Origin: a virus
Length of the DNA stretch: 37,914 nt
Strand: one strand, 5' to 3'
IMG/VR virus record: IMGVR_UViG_3300042526_000152
Coordinates: 1-37,914 of that record
Shown: positions 6,189 through 11,352 of the stretch, one piece after another
Layout: every line of letters begins with the position of its first letter
Numbering within the stretch: the first letter of the stretch is position 1
Position numbers and translations under genes: made by a program
The notes under the pieces: model-generated
The model's input: only the letters and a program-made list of their open reading frames with translations
What the model was told of the DNA's origin: nothing
Databases searched by the model: none

Positions 6189-6347
6189 ATTAATTAATTT
6201 ATTAATTATTTAAGCAGGGGCACCTTGCCGCGCAATATTTAGGGTGGGTTGTTTTTAAAGAGGAGGTAACCGTTCACATACCCTCACTAAATTTTTCTAA
6301 AAAATTTTAAAAATTTTATTTTTTTATATGATTTAACATTATTTGGC
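6189..6347. other. divergent intergenic control region
   Basis: No gene. It contains a short GC-rich patch (GCAGGGGCACCTTGCCGCGC, about 6213-6232) that stands out in this AT-rich genome and could form a GGCA/TGCC hairpin in the leftward leader. An AGGAGGT is at 6261-6267 without a following gene, and ACCCTCACTAAA at 6280-6291 is a 12-base match to the phage T3 RNA polymerase promoter core. A run of alternating A and T blocks (6290-6330) probably bends or melts easily. Leftward promoter elements should lie here, but I could not place them with confidence. Confidence 0.5.
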
Positions 6348-6375
6348 TTGACAAGTATAATTTAATTGTTATATT
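6348..6375 (+). promoter_or_regulatory. sigma70-like promoter for the rightward block
   Basis: Perfect -35 hexamer TTGACA, 16-base spacer and -10 TATATT (one mismatch to TATAAT), pointing right, with the expected start near 6382. Bacteroidota normally prefer TTTG and TAnnTTTG; a TTTG lies just upstream (6342-6345), so either polymerase type could be served. It is positioned to transcribe the hairpin-rich leader and the first structural-side genes. Confidence 0.55.
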
Positions 6376-6382
6376 GTATATC

Positions 6383-6745
6383 GTAACACAGCCAGTAAGA
6401 TGACAGCTTACGAGTTAGTATCGGGGAATACTCTTAAAGAGTAGGAACCTAGAAGTTGGATAGTAAGAGTAGACAATTGATAATCAATTAGTTGAAATGA
6501 GGTTTCTCCAATAGTTACACAATAGTTAATTTAAAGTAAGGTGTGTTACTCAAGGGTAAAAAATAACAAGATCTTGGATTTATTCAAGGCTCCCTAATGG
6601 TCATGATTGAGTAAGTAGGCTAAAAACGGACACCTGAAATAAAATTTTAACTAGAATATAGCGAAGTGATTTAGTTCACTAGGGGATTCTATTCTCTAAT
6701 ATGAACAAAAGCTATATTAAATAGAAAGAATTAAACAATTTAGGG
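6383..6745 (+). ncRNA. hairpin-rich leader or noncoding RNA
   Basis: About 360 bases between the predicted promoter and the first rightward gene, with no open frame of note and many short hairpins. These are GTAAG-ATGACAG-CTTAC; AGTAT-CGGGGA-ATACT; TACTC-TTAAA-GAGTA; AATTGA-TAA-TCAATT; CTTG-GATTTATT-CAAG; and AGTGA-TTTAGT-TCACT. The last lies inside an 8-bp pair of AATATAGC (near 6655) with GCTATATT (near 6710). The density and GC content are higher than in other spacers here. It may be an independent RNA or a regulatory 5' leader. It matched no RNA family that I could identify by eye. Confidence 0.45.
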
Positions 6746-7129
6746 ATGATAGAGATAAAGATTGATAATTCTAAATCTAAGGTTATAGAGCAATACTATA
6801 CTTTAGTTAACCCTTTACTAGGGAAAAATAAACTAGGCCCAGTACAATTGAAGGTACTCGCAAAGATGGCTCTAGTATACAATAATTACATACATCTTGG
6901 AGAAGACGTAGCTAATATGCTACTGTTTAGGAAGGAAGCAAGTGCTCAAATTAGGGATGCTGTATCTAAGGATCTAGGTACAAGCTTTAATTCTGGTGCT
7001 TACTCTCATATCTTATTTGGTTTAAGGGGAAGAGGTTTTATTACTAAGACTAAGATTCTTTACCTTCCTCCTATTAAGGATAAGAAGATTGAGATTAATA
7101 TTAGACTTACTATTGTAGAAGATGAGTAA
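6746..7129 (+). CDS. conserved pre-terminase protein, possible winged-helix DNA-binding protein
   Basis: A 127-residue protein. The central region LGPVQLKVLAKMALVYNNYI (about 34-53), followed by helices around QIRDAVSKDLGTSF and a final HILFGLRGRGFITK strand-turn, reads like a winged helix-turn-helix. The last part would be the recognition helix and wing. Such a protein upstream of TerL could be a small terminase subunit or a late regulator; neither is proven. It is the first gene after the hairpin-rich leader and overlaps the next gene by 8 bases. No Shine-Dalgarno. Confidence 0.7.
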   Translation: MIEIKIDNSKSKVIEQYYTLVNPLLGKNKLGPVQLKVLAKMALVYNNYIHLGEDVANMLLFRKEASAQIRDAVSKDLGTSFNSGAYSHILFGLRGRGFITKTKILYLPPIKDKKIEINIRLTIVEDE

Positions 7130-8131: not shown

Positions 8132-8473
8132 ATGACTAACGAGCAAGGGTTAAACGGGATTAAATTATTCAACAGACAATTAATTGTAGAAGTACCTCAA
8201 ACAACAGTAAGCGGTATTATCTTATCAGGAGGATCAGTAACAGTAGATAACAAACCTTTAAAGGTTGTAGCTGTTGCAGATGATGTAACTAAGTTTAAAG
8301 TAGGTGACTATGTATTAGGAGCTGGAGCTATTATGCCTCTAACAGTAACTGATATGGATGGTAAGATTAATGAGTATATCTTAATCTATGAGTCTAGTGT
8401 TTATGTAGTAGTAGATAAGGAAGTAGTTAAAGATGCTTACTTTGGTACAATTAATAAGGGTCATAACGATTAA
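8132..8473 (+). CDS. GroES-like co-chaperonin
   Basis: A 113-residue protein whose layout follows GroES: RQLIVEVPQTTVSGIILSGG (about 15-34) matches the GroES opening strands and mobile-loop region. KVVAVADDVTKFKVGDYVLG then matches the VLAVG...VKVGD-x-V core, and INEYILIYESSVYVVV matches the closing strand (EEVLIMxESDILAIV). Phage co-chaperonins such as T4 gp31 and RB49 CocO replace host GroES so that the major capsid protein folds in GroEL. Its place just upstream of the head genes fits that role. The segment after VLGAG is altered, so a dome-less variant is possible. The stop shares a base with the next start (TAATG). Confidence 0.65.
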   Translation: MTNEQGLNGIKLFNRQLIVEVPQTTVSGIILSGGSVTVDNKPLKVVAVADDVTKFKVGDYVLGAGAIMPLTVTDMDGKINEYILIYESSVYVVVDKEVVKDAYFGTINKGHND

Positions 8474-8994: not shown

Positions 8995-9403
8995 TAAATA
9001 CTACACACCAAGTTTAGAAGAGTTTCATGTAGGATTTGAGTTCGAGTATCTATCTGGAGTAGATTCAGAAGGAGAAGATTGGTCAACAAGAGTATTTGAT
9101 CAAGTTTATGAAAATTATGATTTTCCTATATTAGATGCAGGTGAGAAGCTAGATTCTTCATTTAGAGTTAAATATCTAGACCAATCTGATATAGAAAGTT
9201 TAGGTTGGAAAGATGGTGAAACTTATGGATTATCTGGATATGTCTTAAACTATGCTACAGATGATAGTTATCAAATATATTACGATGAATCTAATCAATT
9301 CACACAGATTTATAATTGGGATGCTAAGATAATATTTGAAGGTGCTATTAAAAACAAATCTGAATTAAAGAAATTAATGGATCAATTAGATATAGAATGT
9401 TAA
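8987..9403 (+). CDS. conserved hypothetical protein preceding TerL
   Basis: A 138-residue protein from the ATG giving MSNKYYTPSLEEFHVGFEFE, an N-terminus I recall as widespread in Bacteroidota phages; the frame extends 27 bases further upstream but that would overlap the previous gene more. The rest is acidic with aromatic residues (YGLSGYVLNYATDDSYQIYY) and ends in a short helix (KSELKKLMDQLDIEC). No known function. It overlaps TerL by 7 bases, so it is translated with the packaging motor, but homologs occur in other contexts. Confidence 0.8.
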   Translation: MSNKYYTPSLEEFHVGFEFEYLSGVDSEGEDWSTRVFDQVYENYDFPILDAGEKLDSSFRVKYLDQSDIESLGWKDGETYGLSGYVLNYATDDSYQIYYDESNQFTQIYNWDAKIIFEGAIKNKSELKKLMDQLDIEC

Positions 9404-11352
9404 TAGGAACTAAACAATTTCTAGAGTCTAGAGAACATTTTGAAAAGACAGGTAGCTATACTAAAGCTTTAGTAGGGACTTACCAATATGATGAGTTTTG
9501 GGATGAACAAGTAAGACGTTGTATGGACGGGTATTCTGTAGGTAATCTATGGATACCTGGTACATACTATTTTTATTTAAACTTCTTCCCTATCCTAGGT
9601 AAAGATAATATTACTGGTAGAAAGAAAAAGATATTTCCTAGATTTACTGATGTGGATTTAGAATATTTTTTAATACTAGACAGAGCTAGAAAAGAGAAGA
9701 AAGGAGTTATTATGACTAAGCCTCGTAGAACTGGATTCTCTTATAAGAATGCTGGTGTAGTAGTACATGAATATAACTTCTATAGAGATGCTAAGTGTGT
9801 TATTGGGGCTTATGAAAAGAAGTTATCTGAGAACACAATGAATATGTCTTTAGAAGGATTAAACTTTCTAAATAAGAATACTGTATGGGCTAAGCCCCGT
9901 AATCCTGATACAAGGGAGCATGTTATGGCTAGACATCAGAAAGTAGTAGAAGGAGTTCCTCAATGGGTAGGATATAACTCAGAAATTAAAAGATTAACCT
10001 TCCAAGATAATGCCTTTGCTTCAATTGGTCTAACAGCCAATATATTTTTATTTGAAGAAGCAGGTCTATTTGCTAATATTAAAGAGTCTTACAATATCTC
10101 TGAACCTACATGGAAAGATGGGGATTCAATGGTAGGACTTCCAATTCTATTTGGTACTGCTGGAGATATGGACAAGGGTTCATTGCAGTTTGCTGAGATG
10201 TTCTATAATCCTGAGAAGTTTAACTTACTATCATTTGATAATATTTGGGATAAGGAGAAAGTAGGTTCTCAATGTGGATGGTTTTTACCAGCTTCAAGAC
10301 AACGCTTTGGAGATTACCCAGATCCAGATAATGATAATAAATTAACTCCTCTAGTAGATGCTGATGGTAACTCTAATGAGAAGCTAGCTCTACTTTCTAT
10401 TATGAAGTTTAGAGAAACTAAGAAGGGTGATATGAAAGCATTTAGAGATGCTATTACCCAGTACCCATTAAACACAATGGAAGCTTTCTTAGTAAAAGGT
10501 AATAATATCTTTCCTACTGAGTTAGCACAAGATAGAAAAGCTGAACTAGAAGGAAGTAAACTTATCACAGATAGTTACTGGAATGCGGACTTAAGGCAAA
10601 CACAAACGGGTATAGAGTTTAAATTATCTGATAGGTTACCTATAGTTAAGTTTCCACTACAAGCTGATGATGATAAAGAGGGTTGTGTACAAATCTTTGA
10701 GCAACCTTATGCAGATAACCCTACCCATGGTACTTATATAGCTGGTATTGACCCTTATGATGATGATCAATCAACTACAGACTCATTAGGTTGTATATTT
10801 ATTATGCATGCATTAACAGGTAGGATAGTAGCTGAATATACAGGCAGACCTCAGACAGCTAAAGAGTTTTATGAGATATGTAGAAAATTAATATCTTACT
10901 ATAATGCAATTTGTAATTATGAAAATAATAAAAAGGGATTATTTGCTTACTTTGAGCAAAAAAATTGTTTACACTTATTATGTAACACTCCCAAGATTCT
11001 TAGAGATCAGCAGATTATATCTGTAATACGAGAATCAGGTAATACCTCTAAAGGTACTAATGCTTCTAAAGAGGTTAATAAGTATGCTAGGATGCTAATT
11101 AGAGAGTATATGTTAGACCAAGCTTATAATCAAGAAGTAGGCTTAACAAATACTCATACTATACCAAGTGTCCCATTATTAAGTGAGATTATCTATTGGA
11201 ATGAAGATGGTAACTTTGATAGGGTAAGTGCTTTAGGTATGCTACTTATTCTTAGACAAGATAGAATAAAAATAGTAATAGAAGAAGACGAAGAAGAAAA
11301 AGATAGCTTTAACGAATTTTTTGATAGATACTACCGAGGAAAAGCTATATAA
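9397..11352 (+). CDS. terL: terminase large subunit
   Basis: A 651-residue packaging motor, the ATPase and nuclease that translocates and cuts DNA at the portal. A variant Walker A is at residues ~107-117 (KPRRTGFSYK, lacking the classical GKT). Walker B with the catalytic Glu is IFLFEEAG at ~216-223, and a GTAGD coupling-type motif is at ~253. The nuclease domain starts at IAGIDPYDDD (~448-457), with further acidic residues at FEQKN (~518) and DRVSALGM (~608). Domain order and length fit crAss-like TerL. An acidic tail (EEDEEEKD) precedes the end. It overlaps the previous gene and is followed by a 65-base spacer with a recurrent intergenic element before the portal. Confidence 0.95.
   Translation: MLIGTKQFLESREHFEKTGSYTKALVGTYQYDEFWDEQVRRCMDGYSVGNLWIPGTYYFYLNFFPILGKDNITGRKKKIFPRFTDVDLEYFLILDRARKEKKGVIMTKPRRTGFSYKNAGVVVHEYNFYRDAKCVIGAYEKKLSENTMNMSLEGLNFLNKNTVWAKPRNPDTREHVMARHQKVVEGVPQWVGYNSEIKRLTFQDNAFASIGLTANIFLFEEAGLFANIKESYNISEPTWKDGDSMVGLPILFGTAGDMDKGSLQFAEMFYNPEKFNLLSFDNIWDKEKVGSQCGWFLPASRQRFGDYPDPDNDNKLTPLVDADGNSNEKLALLSIMKFRETKKGDMKAFRDAITQYPLNTMEAFLVKGNNIFPTELAQDRKAELEGSKLITDSYWNADLRQTQTGIEFKLSDRLPIVKFPLQADDDKEGCVQIFEQPYADNPTHGTYIAGIDPYDDDQSTTDSLGCIFIMHALTGRIVAEYTGRPQTAKEFYEICRKLISYYNAICNYENNKKGLFAYFEQKNCLHLLCNTPKILRDQQIISVIRESGNTSKGTNASKEVNKYARMLIREYMLDQAYNQEVGLTNTHTIPSVPLLSEIIYWNEDGNFDRVSALGMLLILRQDRIKIVIEEDEEEKDSFNEFFDRYYRGKAI

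Follow-up and report, generated by a model that had tools for sequence, protein, structure and literature searches.

A conserved structured RNA, likely a stand-alone noncoding RNA gene, in crAss-like phages

We identified a structured RNA of about 315 nt in the window (the whole 37,914-nt stretch of viral DNA analysed here), a fragment of a crAss-like phage with the markers terminase (phrog_6681), portal and major head protein. Comparison with relatives shows computationally that the secondary structure is conserved and selected at the RNA level. Positions 6381-6696 likely form a stand-alone gene for a structured noncoding RNA in crAss-like phages and represent an undescribed RNA family. Judging by gene order, the RNA is not tied to one downstream gene, and the arrangement in several relatives means that it cannot serve there as a leader for the gene that follows.

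The RNA lies between two gene blocks, one on the minus strand ending near 6.2 kb and a late block on the plus strand starting at 6746. The stretch had been described as geneless, and we found no ORF of at least 50 aa on the plus strand in 6214-6745. The roughly 370 bases between the gene blocks are free of plus-strand ORFs, and the same gap holds a promoter-like site. The main features are:

6348-6376, plus strand: TTGACA-16-TATATT(G), a promoter-like site immediately before the RNA
6381-6696, plus strand: structured RNA (about 316 nt), with inferred ends set by the outer helix and the conserved 3' tail
6746-7129, plus strand: gene that opens the late block, coding for 127 aa and without a PHROG match
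9397-11352: TerL, downstream of the 6746-7129 gene

The late block also encodes a co-chaperonin GroES-like protein (phrog_3188, 8132-8473).

The first-pass annotation had proposed a noncoding RNA or leader from the window sequence alone, and its observations are partly confirmed. TTGACA (6348-6353) and TATATT (6370-6375) are present with the claimed 16-nt spacing, although promoter-like sites as such do not exceed chance (5 observed against 3.4 expected). The pair AATATAGC (6655-6662)/GCTATATT (6711-6718) exists, with AGTGA/TCACT inside it. The claimed excess of hairpins over chance did not hold against dinucleotide-preserving shuffles. Folding energy of the window alone is unremarkable (MFE z = -1.03, with 16 of 100 shuffles equally good). 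The interval has 9 short hairpins (5.6 +/- 2.8 shuffled; 15% of shuffles have as many) and 8 7-base inverted repeats (4.8 +/- 2.9 shuffled; 17% have as many). Nor are the hairpins picked at that stage the conserved ones: AATATAGC/GCTATATT and AGTGA/TCACT occur only in near-identical sister phages and are absent from relatives of about 71% identity (L011, L013 and L018). On single-sequence evidence alone, the claim of a structured RNA would thus fail. The RNA in the interval is real on comparative evidence, despite these failed grounds.

Querying annotated phages by BLASTN with the locus and with the RNAs of three relatives gave zero matches, and homologs were therefore reached through TerL scans and conserved-motif patterns. 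The TerL-guided scan recovered loci in which the interval can still be recognised, at about 71% identity, and a further locus that is 67% identical over part of the interval, from a phage whose TerL is 47% identical. Among these first relatives the words GTTGGATAGTA and GAGGTTTCTCC hardly vary. DNA patterns built from them and from the co-varied versions GTCGGGT..TCCCCGATA and GTTGGGT..TCCCCAATA gave 27, 61 and at least 80 matches in viral stretches, a total of at least about 170. A covariance model (R1) that covers helices P1, P2 and P3 matches 144 loci (71 + 73, in two sets). By its E-values, which are rough owing to a short calibration, the model places an unannotated copy of the RNA exactly in the divergent intergenic region of the published human-gut genome cr118_1 (66539-66859, E 2e-8); a marginal match in cr116_1 (E = 0.7) was rejected because it falls within annotated genes, and those in cr6_1 and cr1_1 (E 0.13 and 0.64) were not accepted.

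The family has a 5' domain and a 3' part. The 5' domain comprises an outer helix (P0) that encloses hairpins PA and P1, a conserved UAGAA, and P2 with the variable P3 inside it. The 3' part comprises an A-rich joint, a second domain closed by P4, a conserved GGCUAAAAAC-type segment and the AGGGGNNNNNTRTRYCY tail. In the window these parts are:

6383-6387, plus strand: P0 5' strand (GTAAC), outer helix of the 5' domain, pairing with 6514-6518
6395-6411, plus strand: hairpin PA (GTAAG/CTTAC), re-paired in relatives as CTCCC/GGGAG, CTCTGT/ACAGAG, CATT/AATG and CACA/TGTG
6429-6443, plus strand: local hairpin TACTCTT/AAGAGTA, in the place of the family helix P1
6450-6467, plus strand: TAGAAGTTGGATAGTAAG, the most conserved segment, in which 6455-6460 is the P2 5' strand (GTTGGA)
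6475-6489, plus strand: variable hairpin P3 (AATTGA/TCAATT)
6499-6512, plus strand: conserved GAGGTTTCTCCAAT, in which 6507-6512 is the P2 3' strand
6514-6518, plus strand: P0 3' strand (GTTAC), with the double change AU/UG/CG in the closest relatives
6523-6529, plus strand: P4 5' strand (TAGTTAA), outer helix of the 3' domain, pairing with 6647-6653
6540-6544, plus strand: P5 5' strand (GGTGT), pairing with ACACC at 6630-6634
6546-6614, plus strand: P6, TTACTCA (6546-6552)/TGAGTAA (6608-6614)
6553-6556 and 6592-6595, plus strand: AGGG/CCCT, enclosed by P6
6573-6588, plus strand: hairpin CTTG/CAAG, also enclosed by P6
6618-6629, plus strand: conserved unpaired GGCTAAAAACGG
6647-6653, plus strand: P4 3' strand (TTAACTA)
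6681-6696, plus strand: AGGGG-N5-TATTCTC, a conserved tail whose family form is close to AGGGGNNNNNTRTRYCY and which is probably the RNA's 3' region

P1 forms poorly in the window's subfamily and shows strong covariation elsewhere in the family. The 3' tail is strongly conserved, carries no terminator-like hairpin and is absent from the L089-L109 group. Two sister phages (L001:349-789 and L002:316-756) have an HNH/endonuclease-VII-like ORF in place of P3 with both P2 strands intact, as if homing had targeted a tolerant loop of the RNA gene.

The helices are kept by compensatory changes among relatives. In the 71-member alignment (A2), 92% of pair cells are paired, compared with 33-54% when the partners are slid, and 317 cells show double changes, compared with 100 in shuffles; alignments fitted to the model are biased towards its structure. 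The 19 seed sequences are 88% paired (28-45% slid), and a further 57 distinct members are 91% paired. P2 counts in the 71-member and 57-member sets are partly imposed by the search patterns. A recount that avoids this bias, using the window and 18 members found without the P2-based pattern, gave 92% paired (31-49% slid). In this recount P2 is 100% paired in the 19 members, with exchanges CG/UA/UG/AU and AU/GC/UA/GU. Among the window and its closest relatives (six sequences), 97.4% of pair cells are paired (31-45% slid), with double changes in both domains.

Global MAFFT and RNAalifold runs over all members were unsuccessful for the 3' half, and subfamily alignments and permutation tests were used instead. 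For P0, the initial test gave no separation owing to the A-rich flanks; the redone test in 65 relatives gave an own-pair score of 5.13, compared with 3.41 +/- 0.14 permuted (maximum of 1000: 3.91), with 37 distinct 5-mers. P4 is supported family-wide (5.95, compared with 5.07 +/- 0.12 permuted; maximum 5.48 of 2000), while a neighbouring control segment scores 5.04 (5.09 permuted). Five of the seven P4 pairs are altered on both sides in the window's closest relatives. Support for the other 3'-domain helices comes from the window's subfamily: two P5 pairs are altered on both sides in the closest relatives, with no significant support family-wide, and P6 and its inner hairpin show double changes among the closest relatives. 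The comparative structure lies about 3 kcal/mol above the window's MFE. Imperfect pairs outside P2 are G-U (82) more often than A-C (24), an excess that points to selection on RNA read from this strand.

The proposal of a noncoding RNA behind a sigma70-like promoter is supported by the strong covariation, by a 5' helix that begins about 7 nt past the -10-like box and by the lack of an Rfam match. Across the family, 25 of 68 relatives have a Bacteroidota-type -7 box (TAnnTTTG) at most 75 nt upstream of the model start, compared with 6.4% of shuffles, mostly 29-39 nt upstream. The next gene is usually co-directional with the RNA. It is convergent in at least seven relatives (L089, L092, L095, L103, L108, L109 and L163), and in five others (L044, L085, L023, L087 and L110) another promoter-like site separates the RNA from the next gene. 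No terminator-like hairpin was found. The locus had also been described as the single point where the gene blocks diverge; this is true of the window and of cr118_1 and does not extend to some other relatives.

The crAss-type terminase phrog_6681 is encoded on 13 of 13, 27 of 47 and 10 of 20 RNA-bearing contigs in three sets. Contigs without it are mostly fragments or belong to another phage group, and most contigs above about 60 kb have it. The RNA lies 2-12 kb from TerL in 24 of the 27 crAss-like contigs compared, sometimes pointing away, and farther from TerL in three contigs of 141-165 kb. The model has no match in crAss001, a p-crAssphage-type genome (LMMB), phi14:2, DAC15, Fpv20 and others, so either some Crassvirales can do without the RNA or it has changed there too much for the model to recognise. 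The contigs behind L150 and L189 (G033 and G061) each carry two copies of the RNA about 7-8 kb apart. In these two phages the TerL frame is broken by an in-frame TGA, which suggests TGA recoding.

In a second phage group, whose contigs measure about 50-60 kb and lack the crAss terminase, the RNA immediately precedes TerS (phrog_51), TerL (phrog_38) and portal (phrog_156), with copies at L242:1289-1388, L161:956-1058 and, on the minus strand, L284 9839-9938. We also identified chromosomal copies in 8 of 399 genomes of one family (Flavobacteriaceae per the contig records), on contigs of up to 1.6 Mb. In a phylum-wide set the RNA occurs in 1 of 395 genomes, and that one is the query genome. The chromosomal loci (L215, L216, L217, L218, L219, L220, L221, L223, L224 and L226; some genomes have two copies) neighbour tyrosine integrases, a tRNA-Asn gene or resolvases, or belong to a repeated cassette of the RNA, a 64-aa ORF and an HTH_17 protein. 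Excisionase-like HTH genes also occur beside chromosomal copies. These copies look like small integrative elements of Bacteroidota.

Several explanations compete with a stand-alone structured RNA, which we consider probable. Chance hairpins in A/T-rich spacer DNA would agree with the window's own folding energy and number of hairpins, which match shuffles, but covariation and homology refute this reading, and its probability is close to nil. The first-pass annotation had also raised an origin. A folded single-stranded DNA element, such as a replication origin or recombination site, would fit the RNA locus at a strand switch in some phages and the integrase genes that adjoin chromosomal copies. 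It is very improbable, however, given the predominance of G-U over A-C, the promoter box upstream, the varying strand relative to neighbours, and a cumulative GC skew that turns near 3.5-4.5 kb in the window rather than at the RNA locus. More serious is a cis-acting leader (antitermination or riboswitch-like) of the late operon that would control read-through or translation of the structural genes. In the window and its closest relatives the late block follows the RNA directly and shares its strand, with no promoter between them, so that the RNA there could belong to the late message too; the prevailing co-directionality of the next gene also favours a leader. A cis-leader would always lie 5' of, and co-directional with, its regulated gene, and several relatives depart from this arrangement. 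The convergent next genes and the intervening promoter-like sites disfavour an antitermination-type leader as the general function, as do the lack of a terminator-like hairpin and a first downstream gene that varies between groups. Overall, we regard a leader as unlikely.

An alternative with a similarly low probability is a packaging RNA or packaging-recognition element that works with the terminase, carried by the small integrative elements for packaging by helper phages. Consistent with this are the proximity to the terminase in most crAss-like contigs, the position directly before TerS-TerL-portal in an unrelated phage group, and the chromosomal copies beside integrases and excisionase-like HTH genes. 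However, packaging genes come first in many late blocks anyway, the phages of 141-165 kb have a long distance between the RNA and TerL, two different terminase families are involved, and some chromosomal cassettes lack any recognisable phage gene. A more elaborate version, for which we see little likelihood, is a pRNA-like component common to unrelated Bacteroidota phages, with the small chromosomal units of an integrase or excisionase-like gene plus the RNA being satellites that exploit crAss-like helpers; the satellite status of these elements is likewise conjectural. For the stand-alone RNA, host RNA polymerase would transcribe it from the promoter-like site, and the transcript would fold into a discrete RNA. 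The mode of action we favour is in trans, where its most likely target would be a phage or host protein that it binds during the late/packaging phase. The timing is suggested by position, as the RNA usually lies at the start of the late/terminase block, and a specifically late-phase role remains tentative.

CrAss-like phages are among the most abundant human-gut viruses, and we found no description of a conserved structured RNA for them. The open-licence literature searched, supplementary candidate-RNA lists aside, returned no account of an RNA in crAss-like phages; an earlier listing under a code name in supplementary tables is possible. An RNA family of this size, about 315 nt, with covariation among phages of differing terminase type and further copies in integrative elements of their hosts, would represent substantial unstudied phage biology. 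The published gut genome cr118_1 is one in which the RNA can be sought, and public metatranscriptomes could show its abundance. The links to the terminase block and to mobile elements make concrete functional tests possible.

The RNA had not been assigned to a known family from the sequence, and our searches agree. Rfam 15 (including GOLLD, ROOL, tmRNA, RNase P and group I intron) gave nothing at the gathering threshold in the window, and in 26 loci with relatives it gave only tRNAs, the best sub-threshold matches being at chance level. An ARAGORN scan of the window for tRNA and tmRNA returned 0 genes. Assignments to tmRNA, RNase P, a group I intron or an attC-like site were weighed and dropped.

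Known phage RNAs offer partial parallels. HK022 put-type antitermination leaders are structured RNAs at the start of a phage transcription unit, but they are short and cis-acting, whereas the crAss-like phage RNA has about 315 nt and, in several relatives, no co-directional gene after it. The phi29 pRNA (about 174 nt) is part of the phi29 ATPase motor, is tied to DNA packaging and has little sequence but strong structural conservation. The crAss-like phage RNA also lies near packaging genes; pRNA is shorter and has no sequence or model match to it, and a packaging role for our RNA is putative. GOLLD is a large structured noncoding RNA of phages and prophages without assigned function, whose expression goes up during phage lysis (PMC12286853). 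ROOL likewise occurs in phages and prophages as a structured RNA; it has no known protein partner and assembles into an octameric cage (PMC12286853). Both have other structures and are often near tRNA islands; GOLLD is often over 800 nt, and the crAss-like phage RNA is shorter than these two and matches neither model. What it shares with RNAs of the GOLLD and ROOL kind, as known from its sequence, is a long conserved structure, covariation and a place in phage genomes.
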